Below the pieces are notes generated by a model. That model worked only from the letters and a program-made list of their open reading frames with translations, was not told the DNA's origin and did not search any database. This document shows, one piece after another, positions 1,230 to 42,115 of a DNA stretch of 64,000 nt. How positions within the stretch are numbered: the first letter of the stretch is position 1; each line of letters starts with the position of its first letter. Origin of the DNA: Aquisphaera giovannonii. Lineage in GTDB: Bacteria; Planctomycetota; Planctomycetia; Isosphaerales; Isosphaeraceae. The translations under genes were made by a program, and so were the position numbers. The stretch covers positions 4,278,001 to 4,342,000 of the forward strand of contig NZ_CP042997.1 in NCBI RefSeq assembly GCF_008087625.1. Direction: 5' to 3'.

Positions 1230-2033
1230 CTAGATCTGCGACCCGGCGACCGGGCGAAGGAAGAGCGCCGTCACCCGGGAGACGTTTTCCGCGTAGCCCG
1301 GGTTGGAGCTCAACGCCTTCCATTCCGGGTCCTGGCGGAAGGAGTCCCAGTTCTTCGTCGCGTCCTCCCGCCTCGGGTGCATGATCATGTAGGTCAACTG
1401 CGGGAGTTGAGACCCGACGATCGCCCCGCCGAAGAAGACTCCGGGCATGCCGGCGCGGGCGAAGATGGGGAACTCGCCGGCGTTGAACATGTCGAGCTTG
1501 TTCTTCGCCCGCTCGTTGTTGGGGCTCTCGTACGTCCGCAGCTCGAAGACGCGGGACGGCCCCTTCTCCGGCACCCGGAGCCGCGGGAATCCCTCCATCG
1601 CGTGCAGCAGCGTGCTCTCATATCGCGAGAACGCCGGGTCCGACTTCGGGGCCCTCAGGATCGCCCGGCCAGAGCCCTGGAACGCCTCGTCGGCGGCGAG
1701 GCGGGCCTCCAGGGCCAGGACCGATTCCATCGACTCGTGCGTCAGGAGGACGTAGAGATCCGTGCTGTCCCCCTCGAGCTTCAGCCCCGGATTGTCGGCC
1801 GCGTTCAGTCTGAAGACGCCGACGGGATTGATGCCGGCGCGGTTGAAGGCCGGGACCGCGGATTCCGAAAGGAATGACTCATAGAGCGATTGTTTCGCCC
1901 GCGAAGGGAAGCGATAGACCCGCAACTCGTAGAACTGCCTCCCGCGCGGCTCGTCGGCGACGAGGTCCGTCCGCGTGCCCATCACGCCCACCGCCGCGGC
2001 CGTCGAGGCGGCCAGGAACTCGCGTCGTTGCAT
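1230..2033 (-). CDS. Tat-exported NIPSNAP family protein
   Basis: This gene encodes 267 residues. The N-terminus carries a twin-arginine signal (MQRREFLAASTAAAVG) followed by a cleavage-like ADEP region. The mature part has two ferredoxin-like NIPSNAP domains, the first starting near YELRVYRFPSRAKQ and the second near VFELRTYESPNNERAKNK. The conserved paired-domain architecture is common in planctomycetes, where these proteins are exported and of unknown substrate. The ATG at 2033 is preferred over upstream in-frame starts because an AAGGAT Shine-Dalgarno lies just ahead of it and the Tat motif begins at residue 3. The gene is divergent from the kinase gene that follows. Confidence 0.85.
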   Translation of the reverse strand: MQRREFLAASTAAAVGVMGTRTDLVADEPRGRQFYELRVYRFPSRAKQSLYESFLSESAVPAFNRAGINPVGVFRLNAADNPGLKLEGDSTDLYVLLTHESMESVLALEARLAADEAFQGSGRAILRAPKSDPAFSRYESTLLHAMEGFPRLRVPEKGPSRVFELRTYESPNNERAKNKLDMFNAGEFPIFARAGMPGVFFGGAIVGSQLPQLTYMIMHPRREDATKNWDSFRQDPEWKALSSNPGYAENVSRVTALFLRPVAGSQI

Positions 2034-2460
2034 GGGATCCTTCTCGTTCGCGAAGAGGGGGGCCGTCGTCTTGCCAAGGCGAGCCACCCGACCGTCTCGG
2101 ACGCTCGCCCCGTCGGACCGAGGTCGCATTCGAATCGAGCGGAGGGCTCGATTCAAGGCCATCCCGCCCCGCGTCGGCTGCCGCCGGGAATTCTTCCTGG
2201 ACCGACCGGATGGCCGCTCCCTCGTCGCAGGCCTGCGGCGCGGGTTCGGCGGCGATCGGCAGGGCGGACCGTGAGGAGGCCGAGCGGTTCGAGGAGGGCC
2301 GGGCGATCGGAGGGCCTCCTGGCGGTCGGCGACGACCTCGCCCCGGGGGTCGTCCGCTCCCGGGCCTTCCGGGGCACTTGATCGGGCCCCGGCCGCGCGT
2401 TATGGAATCTCGCGGTGCCGCGCGGCGAGACGCCAACGGCGGGCCACCGAGGGCCATCCC
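2034..2460. other. Divergent intergenic region
   Basis: This is the roughly 430-bp gap between the NIPSNAP gene and the divergent kinase gene. Overlapping open frames run through it on both strands, but none shows a recognisable protein. It presumably holds the two promoters, which I could not locate with confidence. Confidence 0.4.
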
Positions 2461-5400
2461 ATGGCGAATCCCGACCGGTCGACAGACCCCGGCGAAGACC
2501 CGCCGACCCGCCCCGGCTCCCCCGGGTCGGGGCCGGCGGAGACCGAAGTCCGCGTCCCGCCCCCGGAGGCGACCCGGATGGAGGAGCCCTCCACCCGGCG
2601 GGCGGACGAGACGGCCGGCGCCTCGGAGCCGGGCGGGGGGGACGGCGTCGAGGAATGGCCCGGCGGCGTCCGCGTCCGGTACATCGGCGACTACGAGCTG
2701 CAAGGCGTCCTGGGGCGGGGCGGCATGGGCGTCGTCTACCGCGCCCGGCAGGTGAGCCTGAACCGCCCGGTCGCCCTGAAGATGATCCGCGACGGCGAGT
2801 TGGCCGGGCCCGACGACCTCCGGCGTTTCCGCAACGAGGCCGAGGCGGTCGCCGCGCTCGACCACCCGCGGATCGTGCCGATCTACGAGGTCGGCGAGCA
2901 CGACGGCCGGAACTACTTCAGCATGAAGCTGGTCGACGGCCTGTCGCTCGAGGCCCGCCTGGGGGACCTCGGGCCCGACCCGGCGGCCGCCGCCCGTCTC
3001 GTGGCGGCCGCGGCCGAGGCGGTCGACCACGCCCACCGGCGCGGGATCCTCCACCGCGACCTCAAGCCGGCGAACATCCTGATCGACCGCGACGGCACGC
3101 CCCACGTGACCGACTTCGGCCTGGCTCGGCGGATCGAGGATGGGCCGGGGCTGACCGCCTCGGGGGCGATCCTCGGGACCCCCTCGTACATGGCCCCCGA
3201 GCAGTCCTACGGCGTGAGGGCGGCCGTGACGACGGCCAGCGACGTCTACGGCCTGGGCGCGGTCCTCTACGCCCTCCTGACCGGCCGGGCGCCCTTCGGC
3301 GGAGACAGCGTCTATGACACTCTCCGCATGGTCCGCGAGGCGCCCCCCGAGCCGCCCCGGCGGCTCAACCCGAGGGTGCCCCGCGACCTGGAGATCATCG
3401 CCCTGAAGTGCCTGGAGAAGGAGCCGAGGCGCAGGTACGCCTCGGCGCAGGCGCTCGCCGACGACCTCGGGCGTTGGCTCCGGGGGGAGCCGATCGAGGC
3501 CCGGCCGGTCGGCGTCGCGGTCCGCCTTGCGATGTGGTGCCGGCGGCGGCCGGCCATCGCCGGGCTGTCGGCGGCCCTGGCGGTCGTCGCGGCGGCGGGG
3601 CTGGTGTTCGGCACGAGCCAGTACCGCGCCGCGCTGGACAACGCCGAGGCCGCCAGCCGCAACGAGTCGGCCGCGAGGGGCCGCAGCGCCGAGCTGGCCG
3701 TCGTCAACCGGTCGCTGGTCGCCTCGCGCGACGAGCTCCGGAGGAACCTCTACGTCGCCGACATGACCGTGGCGAACATCGACCGCGAGAATCGGCAGTT
3801 CGGCCGCATGTCGGACCTGCTGGACCGCCAGGTCCCCCGGGCCCGGGTCGGACGACCTCCGGGGCTTCGAGTGGCACTACCTGCACCGCCAGGCCCACGC
3901 CGAGCTGCGCTCGTTCCCGGCGGAGGAGGGGGCGCTGGCCTCGATCGCCTTCAGCCCGGACGGAAAGCGCGTCGCCACCGGCTCGGAGTCGGGGCGGATC
4001 GCGCTGCGAGACGCCGAGTCGGGCCGGGTCATCGCGTCGTGGCAGGCGCACCGGTCCCCGGTCTGGGACCTGGAGTTCAGCCCCGATGGCGGATGGCTCG
4101 CCTCGTGCCCCCAGCCCGCCTCCGGCGTCTCCGGCCCGGAGGATGTCGTGACGATCTGGGGGAGCCTGGACGGGTCGCCCGTCCGCACGCTCGGAGGGCC
4201 GCTCGACGGCTATTCGGAGTACGTGACCGGCCTCGCCTTCCACCCCGACGGCCGGCGCCTGGCGACCTCCGGCAGCCGGTTGCAAATCTGGGATGCGGCG
4301 ACCGGCCGGCCGGATCCGGCCTGGCCCGGGACTGACGACCGGGGCCATGGAGGCGTGGCCTTCAGCCCGGACGGCCGGGCCGTCGCGACCACCCAGGTCG
4401 ACTTCCAGGGGAAGGTGCCCGCCCCGGTCTACGTCGTCGAGCGGGACCTGGCCGGCGGTGCGGCACCACGGCGGTATCTGCTGCCCCGCGAGCGTGCTCT
4501 GGGCAGGGTGGCGTACACCCCGGACGGGCGGAGGCTCCTCGGGACGGGTTACGGCCCGAACCTCTACGTCTGGGATCGGGGACGCCCCGAGCCTGCCCAC
4601 GTCCTGAGCTCGCCCGCCGGCTCCACGCTCGACGGGATCGCGGCCTCGCCCGAGGGCCGCCGGGCGGCCGTGGCCGTCCGCGACCTGCGACACGTCCAGG
4701 TCTGGGATCTCGAGACCGGCCGCTCCCTCGGGATCCGCGCGGCGCACGGGGGGGATGCCAAGGACGTGGCCTTCCGGCCCGACGGCAGGCTGGTCGCCTC
4801 GGTCGGCCGCGACGGCGTGATCCGCTACTGGGACCCGTCCGCCGACCCCGAGTCCCGTGTGCTCCGCGGGTATAGCCGGGGGGTACTCGGGCTGGCGATC
4901 GGGGTCGACGGGACGTTGATCTCGTCGGAATGGCAAGAGCCCGGGGAGCCGGGAAGGATCGTCGGCCGGGCCCAGGCCTGGGAGCCGCCAACGGGCTGGC
5001 GGCGTTGGCGACTGGAGCGGGAGCTGGGCGGGACGTTCTCCCCGATCGCGGTCGGCCGAGACGGCCGGATCGCCCTGGGAGGGGGGGAGTCTCCGATCAC
5101 CTGGCTGGACGCCGCCACGGGCGTCACGGCCGGCGACCTCGGCCCGCGGGGGCGGGTCACAATCGCCGCCATGGCGTTGAGCCCCGACGGGGCGCTGGCC
5201 GCCACCGCCGAGTTCGCCGGGCAGGTGGTGACGCTCTGGGACCTCCCCGCGGGCCGCGAGGCCCGGCGGCTGGTGGGTCACTCCGGCAGCATCCATACGT
5301 TGGCCTTCCACCCCGACGGCCGCCGGCTCGCCTCCGGGGACGAAAGCGGCGAACTGCGGTTCTGGGACCTCGACGGCGGCCGCGCACCTCGACTCCTCGA

Positions 5401-33711: not shown

Positions 33712-33780
33712 TCCCCGTGGGGGCCGGCCCCCGCGTGAATCCTGTCTCCTCGACCTCTCTCATCTCCGGGTCGCCTTCTC

Positions 33781-33806
33781 CGTGCCCTCCGTGCCTCCGT
33801 GGTGAA
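33781..33806. repeat. CACGGA-type intergenic repeat unit
   Basis: Read on the minus strand this contains three CACGG units spaced 8-9 bases apart (CACGGAGG, CACGGAGGG, CACGG), preceded by TTCAC. It lies in the 109-bp gap between two convergent genes and matches in design the inverted repeat arms at 41344 and 41499. Its function is unknown. Confidence 0.55.
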
Positions 33807-33820
33807 TCCTCCCGCCGCCT

Positions 33821-40307: not shown

Positions 40308-41135
40308 TCAGGCATAAGGATCGGGCGGGCCGTACTGCGACCAGCCGCTCGCGGCCTCGTCGCGGGCCTTCATGTACTGGGCCCGGTTGTAGAAGAGCAA
40401 GGCGACGGCGATGCCCGTGACGGCACCCCCGACATGGGCGAGGTACGCGACGCCGCCGGACTTGCCCATCTGGCCGAAGGCTCCCGCGCCCAGGACGATC
40501 TGGAGGACGATCCAGCCGCCGATGACGATGACCGCCGGCAGCACGGTGATGATGCGGAACAGGAGTACGCGCATCTGGTTCTGGGGAAACCAGACCACGT
40601 ATGCCCCCATGATCCCCGCGATGGCGCCGGAGGCCCCCAGCGTGGGGATGATCGAGTCCGGCGCGGCGGCGATCTGGGCGAGCGAGCCCGCGAGGCCGCA
40701 GGCGATGTAGACGACGAAATAGAGGAACGGCCCGAGGACCTCCTCGACGTTGTCGCCGACGATCCAGAGATACAGCATGTTCCCCAGCAGGTGCATCCAG
40801 CCGCCGTGCAGGAACATGCACGTGAAGAGCGTCATCCAGGGCGGGATCGCCGAGGGGGCGTGCTCGATCACCTGCCGCTGCCGGACGACCAGGATGCGCC
40901 GGCCCGTCGGGTCGTCGGGGTCGCGGACCCGCATGGGGACCGGCGGGCCGACCTCGACCGGTTGGTCGATGTCCTCACCGTTCGTGACCTCCCAGGGGGT
41001 GCAGGCATAGGCATAGGTGAACCGCTCCCCGAGGTTCTCCTGGACGAGGAACATCAGGACGTTGGCCGTGATGATCGCATACGTCACGACCGGGACGATC
41101 CGGGTCGGGACCAGGTCGCCGAGCGGCAGCACCAT
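40308..41135 (-). CDS. Rhomboid family intramembrane serine protease
   Basis: This gene encodes 275 residues. Rhomboids cleave transmembrane substrates inside the membrane. The catalytic Ser is in GASGAIAGIMGAY and the catalytic His in LAHVGGAVTG, and the HGGWMHLLGNMLYLWIVGDNVEE motif marks the first core helices. About six hydrophobic segments are present. A hydrophilic insert of about 70 residues lies between the first helix and the core (GEDIDQPVEVGPPVPM to QVIEHAPSAIPP). ATG 41135 (MVLPLGDLVPTR) is chosen because it starts the conserved sequence and has GAGGA upstream. The substrate is unknown. Confidence 0.93.
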   Translation of the reverse strand: MVLPLGDLVPTRIVPVVTYAIITANVLMFLVQENLGERFTYAYACTPWEVTNGEDIDQPVEVGPPVPMRVRDPDDPTGRRILVVRQRQVIEHAPSAIPPWMTLFTCMFLHGGWMHLLGNMLYLWIVGDNVEEVLGPFLYFVVYIACGLAGSLAQIAAAPDSIIPTLGASGAIAGIMGAYVVWFPQNQMRVLLFRIITVLPAVIVIGGWIVLQIVLGAGAFGQMGKSGGVAYLAHVGGAVTGIAVALLFYNRAQYMKARDEAASGWSQYGPPDPYA

Positions 41136-41575
41136 GGCGGGGCGTCCTCGAAGCGGTCGGCGGGCCCCGCCGGCCCTCGGGGCGAAGGCCGGCGCGGACG
41201 CGCGGGGCGAAGCCCCATTGTACGAACCGCCCCCGCGGACGAACACTCCCACCCCTTACCCTTGCCGCCGCCCTGGGCATCCTGCGCCCTTCGCGGGCAG
41301 GCCACGGAACTGTGAGGACGATGATCCACGGAGGGGACGGGGAGAGTTCAACCACGGAAAACACGGAAAGCACGGAAGGGGAATACCGGTCAAGGCGGCC
41401 CGAGGAATTGGTCGGGGTCGGGCCATTCGATCTCGTGCGGCAGAGCCAAATGCACGGGGTGCCGCCCCGAGCAGGCCCAACCTCCCCCTTGATTTGATCC
41501 CTTCCGTGGTTTCCGTGTTTTCCGTGGTTGAACTCCCCCCGTGCCCTCCGCGGTTGCCCCTCAGATCCGCGGATA
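41136..41575. other. Intergenic region with an inverted repeat
   Basis: About 440 bp lie between the rhomboid start and the end of the hypothetical gene at 41576. The middle contains a long-armed inverted repeat (41344-41535). Outside the repeat, nothing else is recognised. Confidence 0.5.
41344..41535. repeat. Inverted repeat with 37-bp CACGGA arms
   Basis: The left arm (41344-41380) and the right arm (41499-41535) are reverse complements over 37 bases with one mismatch. Each arm is built of three 9-base units beginning CACGG, next to an AGTTCAAC edge. The 118-bp interior has no coding feature. Similar CACGG units occur at 33781. This resembles a small non-autonomous mobile or structural element of planctomycetes. 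Confidence 0.75.
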
Positions 41576-42115
41576 TCAGGCCCACATGCGGCCCGGCTGT
41601 CCGTGGGAAGCCTCGAGCTTCTCCCATTCCCGGCGGACGCGGGAGAGGCCGAAGGCGCAGAGTTCGAACTCCTCGCTGAGACGGCGGAAGACACCGCCGA
41701 GTTCCGCGGGGCTCAGGGTGCTGGCCCGGTAATACGAGCGTTTGCCCTGCTCCTGGAAGCTGATCAGCGAATCGGCGAGCGGGGCAGCCTGGAGCTTCGG
41801 CAGGGCTTCGGGATAGACGCCGGTCCAGAAGAGCGTGAAGTCCCCGACGTGCCGCAGGCAGTCGCGGCGGCGATCGTCGTCGGGGGCGGATTCGGCCTCG
41901 GCGAGCATCTCCGCCACCTGGCCGACCCGACGGCCTTGCTTGTCGCGCACGGCCCAGATGGCCTGGCTGGAGACGAAGCGGGCCAGGAGTTGGGAGACGT
42001 AGCCGACCAGCGAGGGATCACCGATCCCCAGGTCGGACATGAACGTCGATTCGGTCAGGCCTCGGAAGAGGCGGTGCAGGGGGTGGGTCTCGGCGATGCT
42101 GCATGAAGTATCCAT
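41576..42115 (-). CDS. Hypothetical protein
   Basis: This gene encodes 179 residues, soluble, with helical character (LVGYVSQLLARFVSSQ, QVAEMLAEAESAPDDDRRRDCLRHVGDFTLFWTGVYPE). No domain is recognised. ATG 42115 (MDTSCSIAETHPLHRLFRGL) follows GAGGAG by seven bases, which supports the start. It is divergent from the membrane protein gene that follows. Confidence 0.75.
   Translation of the reverse strand: MDTSCSIAETHPLHRLFRGLTESTFMSDLGIGDPSLVGYVSQLLARFVSSQAIWAVRDKQGRRVGQVAEMLAEAESAPDDDRRRDCLRHVGDFTLFWTGVYPEALPKLQAAPLADSLISFQEQGKRSYYRASTLSPAELGGVFRRLSEEFELCAFGLSRVRREWEKLEASHGQPGRMWA

Follow-up and report, generated by a model that had tools for sequence, protein, structure and literature searches.

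A long inverted repeat of short tandem units lies in a gap between two genes of Aquisphaera giovannonii, and the question considered here is what kind of element it is and how it came to be there. The window, that is, the whole 64,000-nucleotide stretch of DNA analysed, had been read before from its letters alone. That sequence-only reading reported a 37-bp inverted repeat of CACGG units at 41344-41535 with nearly perfectly complementary arms. The inverted repeat is real and is built of CACGGA units at 9-nt spacing, but both the length and the interval were set too short: the arms are 55 nt long, and the insertion extends over 41303-41575. The arms are 93% complementary over the 55 nt, with 118 nt between them.

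The explanation favored here, with a probability of about 0.6, is that the inverted repeat in the window represents a non-autonomous copy, without the gene, of a hairpin element that is dispersed by its own nuclease. In its full-length form, that element would have a single small GxxExxY gene (TIGR04256 / PF13366, PD-(D/E)XK nuclease fold) enclosed by inverted repeats, each built of CAC-RRA units of 8-10 bp in tandem. The features of the window on which the analysis is based are as follows.

41303 to 41575, no strand: whole insertion, bounds taken from the empty site in the same-genus genome G002
41325 to 41332, plus strand: outer TCCACGGA unit, left side
41326 to 41380, plus strand: left arm of the inverted repeat, 55 nt
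41353 to 41376, plus strand: three CACGGA units at 9-nt spacing (starts 41353, 41362, and 41371), A subtype (CACGGAAAR)
41381 to 41498, no strand: interior, with no GxxExxY remnant; elsewhere in the genome it has short, weak matches at most
41499 to 41553, minus strand: right arm of the inverted repeat, 55 nt
41503 to 41526, minus strand: three CACGGA units mirroring the left arm
41576 to 42097, minus strand: flanking gene, its stop codon abutting the insertion (crude gene call)
40308 to 41138, minus strand: gene lying downstream with the same orientation (crude gene call)
33777 to 33808, minus strand: solo arm of another subtype (TTCACCACGGAGGCACGGAGGGCACGGAGAA), with CACGGAG units at 8-9-nt spacing, in a gap between convergent genes

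When arms of at least 30 nt that lie at most 2 kb apart are considered, the window has one other inverted pair, a 74% overlapping palindrome. The RNA fold predicted for 41320-41560 has a z of about -11 on either strand, and 0 of 200 shuffles are equally stable. An Rfam scan of the window gave no RNA family at gathering thresholds, and the element is not within a 23S rRNA gene.

Copies of the Element in the Genome

The proposal that the element is dispersed is borne out by the number of copies. In the 10.5-Mb genome the three-unit pattern CACRRANNNCACRRANNNCACRRA is matched 67 times, with at least two matches overlapping in one array, versus 0 for the reversed control; the two-unit pattern CACGGANNNCACGGA has 176 versus 2, mostly paired as a plus match and then a minus match. 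BLAST searches with the window element show that its arms recur elsewhere in the genome and that interior matches are few, short, and weak.

For comparison, 40 stretches with arms were retrieved from this genome (G000). Three unit subtypes are present: A (CACGGAAAR, that of the window element), T (CACGGATGG/TAA), and CACAGAG. The A-type set comprises 29 pairs, 28 from the retrieved stretches plus the window element; it leaves out solo arms (two in L032 and one each in L036, L052, L057, and L050), T-type loci, and the CACAGAG element of L037, and retains L059, in which A and T units are mixed. The distance from first to last unit is 130-261 bp in these pairs, save for 610 bp in L050, and unit spacing differs from copy to copy. 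Outer units resembling TCCACGGA occur in 35 of the 58 arms and in the opposite orientation in 0 of 58. Mean GC content is 56% for the interiors versus 72% for the flanks.

The two arms of a copy co-vary: within the A-type copies, the best match of an arm is its own partner. This holds over both the inner 27 nt and the outer 20 nt (0 of 10000 permutations in either case). An interior is clearly common to L041a and L041b only, which lie about 4.5 kb apart and match in opposite orientation (76% over 67 nt and 72% over 50 nt); the remaining interior-to-interior matches span 14-26 nt, as between the window element and L066 (19 nt, 89%). The possibility that gene-less copies are decayed gene-bearing copies was rejected after tblastn searches with 18 GxxExxY proteins against 42 elements (the 29 A-type pairs of G000 and 13 pairs of G002), in which only the gene-bearing L050 gave a match below E 0.5. 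Since the interiors of gene-less copies are unrelated to the gene and hardly related to each other, simple internal deletion fails as an explanation.

Empty Sites in Genomes of the Same Genus

The comparison of empty sites, which had been suggested as a check, yields five sites without the element in same-genus genomes. At the window site of G002 the flanks are contiguous, with 2 nt in place of the 273 bp of 41303-41575, and the element is also missing in G001. The L041a site is empty in G002 and the L041b site in G001. The fifth site is that of the gene-bearing L073 (CACAGAG type), which has an ortholog, L085, at the matching site in G002 and is empty in G001 (826 versus 155 bp). No tandem-unit arrays are present at the empty sites in the retrieved stretches. 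A target-site duplication is not visible at the window site in comparison with G002, where the flanks are diverged. Another candidate explanation, that the interior is host DNA trapped between two arms, was rejected on the finding that interior and arms are jointly absent in G002. One gap has been occupied in different ways: L041b (L041 6595-6795; L227) is A-type in A. giovannonii, the corresponding gap holds a T-type element in G002, and it is empty in G001. The many copies, their intergenic placing, and the five empty sites together support the description of the element as mobile or dispersed.

G002 has arm-only matches of its own at 27 or more places beyond L085. Of 19 such regions retrieved, 13 have gene-less pairs (139-262 bp) and six have single arrays only by the pattern used; all 15 three-unit matches of G002 start with CACGGAT. 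In G000 the large gene-less family is of the A type, with 28 gene-less pairs in addition to an A-type gene (L072). The L050 site is of no use as an empty site because its flanks are separate in G002. Synteny with G002 (contig C293) breaks at the L050 GxxExxY element (2002-4036); the flanks are about 20 kb apart on one contig, with a CACAGAG arm at one of them.

Position Relative to Genes

The elements sit in gaps between genes: of 39 elements considered with a home-made gene caller (29 A-type and 10 others), none is inside a gene, 15 are in convergent gaps, 24 are between tandem genes, and none is in a divergent gap. The 40 gene pairs of the window (21 tandem, 10 convergent, and 9 divergent) served as background, and at this rate the probability of 0 divergent in 39 is 5e-5, a rough figure from a crude caller whose nearest called genes are up to 1.3 kb off for some T-type loci. 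The sequence TGATCCACGGA is found in six outer units, five of which have their TGA at the end of the called flanking gene. In the window, the stop codon of the neighboring minus-strand gene (41576-41578) adjoins the right end of the insertion.

As a location, then, the transcript end named in the sequence-only reading stands. As a primary function it is not supported: the one terminator-like match in the window element is a single 5-pair stem inside one arm, the element does not end in a short G+C-rich stem with a T-tract behind it, and same-genus sites do without the hairpin. Terminator-like matches number 3 in 1.3 kb versus a shuffle mean of 0.9.

GxxExxY Genes within the Arms

The L050 pair encloses a gene of 125 codons (L050/L072) whose product matches TIGR04256 (GxxExxY) with 140.8 bits versus a cut-off of 35 and PF13366 with 141.3 bits versus 22. 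CACGGAAAR units and the outer TCCACGGA unit surround this gene as they do the interior of the window copy, which thus belongs to the same subtype. The A. giovannonii genome has four matches to the GxxExxY family, and all four lie between arms of the tandem-unit design, although the units differ: CACGGAAA, CACGGATG, CACAGAG, and CACAGATGAA (10-bp spacing), one of them being the subtype of the window. The L071 gene has whole hairpins on either side, not one simple arm pair. That such arms enclose GxxExxY genes had gone unnoticed in the sequence-only reading.

GxxExxY matches are found in 22 of 40 genomes, A. giovannonii included. In this genome and its relatives, 26 of 32 GxxExxY loci have an inverted-repeat score of at least 16, with controls of 5 intervals only (30 for the IVP loci discussed below; the strong controls are the 0/380 and 0/395 of the wider set). 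Twenty-two of the 32 loci exceed the highest score (24) of 300 mix-and-match draws from these loci.

The wider set was drawn from a scan of 84,980 genomes and consists of the best 80 of 565 confirmed relatives, picked by protein and not by arms. These best 80 of 565 come from Chloroflexota, Planctomycetota, Bacteroidota, Acidobacteria, Verrucomicrobia, Cyanobacteria, Proteobacteria, Spirochaetes, Chlamydiae, Nitrospinota, archaea, and others; the association of arms with GxxExxY genes extends across Bacteria and Archaea. Among the 77 testable loci of the best 80 of 565, 46 score at least 16 versus 0 of 380 size-matched intervals drawn at random from their contigs; 61 score at least 14 versus 5 of 380 controls, and 16 fall below 14. 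Oriented tandem CRCRRAG units are present on both sides at 42 of the best 80 of 565, versus 0 of 395 controls and 0 of 30 IVP loci, and on the left side alone at 53 of 80 versus 11 of 395. Tandem units in the wrong orientation, at 14 of 80 on the left and 14 of 80 on the right in this best 80 of 565, are likewise above control (4 and 2 of 395). In A. giovannonii and its relatives, the strict CRCRRAG pattern is found on both sides at 10 of 27 loci, a low count because the pattern by design misses the A and T subtypes.

The unit series at 33781 can be placed in the same setting. Its reality, its 8-9-nt spacing, and its position between convergent genes are as first described, but it is a single arm (33777-33808) and of a different subtype from the window element. 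No partner arm is found in the 400 nt upstream (best score 6.0; control of 400 nt downstream, 7.5). Its best matches among the left flanks of the best 80 of 565 GxxExxY loci are L156, L175, and L207.

Plasmids and viruses receive little support as carriers: 8 of 72,556 plasmid records match L072, and viral contigs gave one confirmed GxxExxY relative, also with arms (score 23.5).

Several features of individual loci were observed along the way. In L073 (about 1340-1450 and about 1890-2030) and also in L085, long purine tracts separate arm and gene on the left side and pyrimidine tracts do so on the right, adding about 100 nt to the imperfect inverted repeat. In L276, L076, L088, and L089, tandem or nested copies of the arms flank the gene, as if both arms expand together. 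Arms of L076, L083, and L097 read in frame ahead of the gene give repetitive stretches (TKYTKYTKK, HGGHGEK); such in-frame arms are a possible source of mis-annotated gene starts. GxxExxY elements account for a class of intergenic repeats and, probably, for some spurious in-frame N-terminal extensions in annotations. An unrelated match to the SAM-II riboswitch lies at 4425-4483 of L170, on a Labilibaculum contig near a GxxExxY locus.

Co-Inheritance of Gene and Arms

The letter that follows CRCRRA (G, A, or T) tracks the clades of the GxxExxY protein. The protein tree includes 62 of 125 proteins: 42 with at least 90 readable residues from A. giovannonii, its relatives, and the virus, and every second of the first 40 of 59 labelled loci of the wider set; it is built on few columns, has many weak forks, and bears a unit letter in 51 rows. 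On these 51 rows the letter changes 5 times (shuffle mean 12.4, minimum 9). Without the wider set there are 4 changes on 31 rows (mean 11.0, minimum 7), and with near-duplicates and a long branch also removed there are 3 on 25 rows (mean 8.4, minimum 5); in each of the three row sets, 0 of 1000 shuffles matched the observed number. The result demonstrates that gene and arms are transmitted jointly; it is compatible with, but no proof of, recognition of the arms by the protein.

Across the 40 genomes, 16 have both the gene and three-unit matches, 5 have matches only (G007, G023, G024, G030, and G037), 6 have the gene only, and 13 have neither. The association (Fisher p 0.01) reflects moderate agreement, to which gene-bearing copies themselves contribute some matches. 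In G006 (CACGAAATA), G018 (CACGAAA), and G034 (CACGAAA), the arms of the gene resemble many other matches of that genome. G030 has 18 matches and no GxxExxY gene, and G010 has 11 CACGAAT-like matches but CACGGAG-type units at its five gene places with arms.

The GxxExxY Protein

To our knowledge, no function has been assigned to GxxExxY proteins, which are annotated in many genomes of bacteria and archaea. The family is mentioned in passing in the accessible part of one paper (PMC8934634), and no description of these elements was found in the literature searched, a search that subscription papers mostly lay beyond. The arms give these proteins a genomic identity and a testable candidate substrate.

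An AlphaFold2 model from 41 sequences has a pLDDT of 96.5 and a pTM of 0.88. Its best PDB match is SSO0001 (4ic1), a Cas4 protein: the Foldseek E is 5e-4, and VIA gives a Z of 9.6 for 102 residues at 3.9 A. In Foldseek the next matches are lambda-type exonucleases; Hjc has a Z of 6.8, where Z alone means little. No sequence-related PDB chains were obtained at E <= 10. Residues D69, E79, and K81 (numbering of the first sequence) are invariant in 18 proteins, as expected if the protein is an active PD-(D/E)XK nuclease. A role in defence is unsupported by PADLOC, in which the matches were weak (best E 0.0074) and came from one of two proteins, and by PHROGs, which gave none.

Proposed Mechanism and Alternative Explanations

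That the window element is a gene-less relative of the GxxExxY elements is very probable. That the GxxExxY nuclease drives the dispersal is a more tentative proposal, with slightly less than even chances in our estimate and with G010 and G030 as counter-examples. The Cas4 / lambda-exonuclease-like fold of the model suggests that the nuclease may recognize the extruded hairpin, as a cruciform or as single-stranded DNA. It would then help its own element to be copied into gaps at the 3' ends of genes where insertions are tolerated, and gene-less copies with matching arms could be served in trans. Hairpin-templated correction may keep the arms of a copy matched, while unconstrained interiors would drift. 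Speaking against dispersal by the nuclease are that no movement was seen, that target-site duplication is not visible, and that the link between arm letter and protein clade is also expected if gene and arms merely travel together.

One rival explanation is a transcript-end or structural role. Transcripts would be terminated, protected, or processed by a long RNA hairpin that acts in both directions at the 3' ends of genes and could serve, for instance, as a substrate of RNase III; the elements would have spread by selection for that role. The absence of divergent placings by the crude gene caller, the TGA-ending outer units, and the highly stable fold all agree with it, as does the hairpin of the Coxiella intervening sequence (IVS), an RNase III substrate according to the accessible part of the source (PMC4990558). 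It is nevertheless unlikely: the sole terminator-like match is of a kind that arises in shuffles, equivalent sites in same-genus genomes lack the element, and arms of such design surround GxxExxY genes and track their phylogeny. A little less likely again is a conventional MITE, moved by an insertion sequence with a DDE or HUH transposase elsewhere and with the GxxExxY genes as passengers. Short, gene-less, dispersed elements with terminal inverted repeats and empty sites are what a MITE would look like; the diverged flanks of the window site show no target-site duplication, however, the interiors have hardly anything in common between copies, GxxExxY is the only gene recognized between the arms of the 29 A-type pairs, and an equal arm design surrounds it in unrelated phyla.

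The elements might also be self-perpetuating mutational structures, in which hairpins at tolerated sites grow through short tandem units and through template switching that corrects quasi-palindromes, and in which the GxxExxY link is indirect. We consider this improbable, the least likely of the three. It would account for the arms that fit their own partner best, for whole arms tandemly multiplied on both sides in L276 and L076, and for variable unit spacing among copies, but it leaves unexplained the CRCRRA letters conserved across phyla, the absence at orthologous sites, and the enclosed GxxExxY genes. A gene-less copy of a GxxExxY hairpin element is the preferred reading.

Relation to Known Repeat Elements

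REPINs are intergenic, paired hairpins with variable loops, many of them gene-less, together with few gene-bearing (RAYT) copies. The elements described here share with them the numerous gene-less hairpins, the few gene-bearing copies, the intergenic placing, and the variable loops; they differ in that the enclosed protein has a PD-(D/E)XK-like profile match and fold and is not an HUH tyrosine (Y1) transposase, and in that the arms consist of tandem units. Short tandem 7-bp units are also known from the cyanobacterial heptamer repeats (STRR).

A close parallel is with 23S rRNA intervening sequences that carry an S23/IVP four-helix-bundle gene (TIGR02436). Such genes are present in 20 of the 40 genomes; the A. 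giovannonii genome has no TIGR02436 match, and by this test the window element is not a 23S intervening sequence. As far as the accessible part of the Coxiella source goes, both kinds of element consist of a single small gene enclosed by a long inverted repeat, with short tandem units lying close to the start codon, and the S23-carrying Coxiella IVS has a 28-bp stem with heptameric GACAGAT repeats (PMC4990558). These heptamers agree with the period of the IVP arms analysed here: 19 of 30 IVP loci score at least 16, and the left arms of those have period 7 in 16 cases, 8 in one, 9 in one, and none in one. The letters of the 7-bp units vary among the IVP loci of the relatives (L103-L132; AGCGGTC, AGTTTTC, GTTATTG, AAGTTCC). 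In contrast, of the 72 GxxExxY arms scoring at least 16, 51 have a clear period (8-10 in 48, 11 or 12 in three, and 7 in none) and 21 have none by the measure used. The protein family is different and the units are 8-10-bp CRC-RRA units rather than 7-bp ones; furthermore, no rRNA was found within the 20 loci tested, 18 of which are GxxExxY loci.

It is conceivable, at somewhat short of even odds, that one superclass of prokaryotic hairpin elements, so far undescribed, comprises both the GxxExxY and the S23/IVP elements, rRNA intervening sequences included, as its two branches. Such elements would have a single small protein in inverted short-unit repeats whose period is set by the protein family (8-10-bp CRC-RRA units or 7 bp with free letters), and would throw off gene-less copies, which are seen here for the GxxExxY side only. 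If so, debris of such elements would make up many of the short-unit repeats that are found, without explanation, between the genes of environmental genomes. With two families and two unit periods, one can ask what keeps a small protein matched to a repeat period and what the origin of rRNA intervening sequences was.

A pairing of MITEs with a PD-(D/E)XK protein has been proposed in Thiomargarita for PD-(D/E)XK_2 (TIGR01784, YhgA-like) proteins, as given in the accessible part of that paper (PMC4853749). The Thiomargarita family is PF12784 versus PF13366 here, and the repeats described in that part are 10-bp direct repeats and a 19-bp inverted repeat, with no tandem-unit arms. The TAACTGA heptamer repeats of Beggiatoaceae are also short tandem units in intergenic regions, near start codons, and are discussed in their source as possibly mobile; they differ in being 7-bp and mostly direct rather than inverted, and the accessible part of the source identifies no binding protein and does not contain the terms 'four helix' or 'S23' (PMC4679880). 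A run of about 12 head-to-tail CACAGAGGG-like units was seen in one relative of A. giovannonii (G018, contig C22, 95071-95175).
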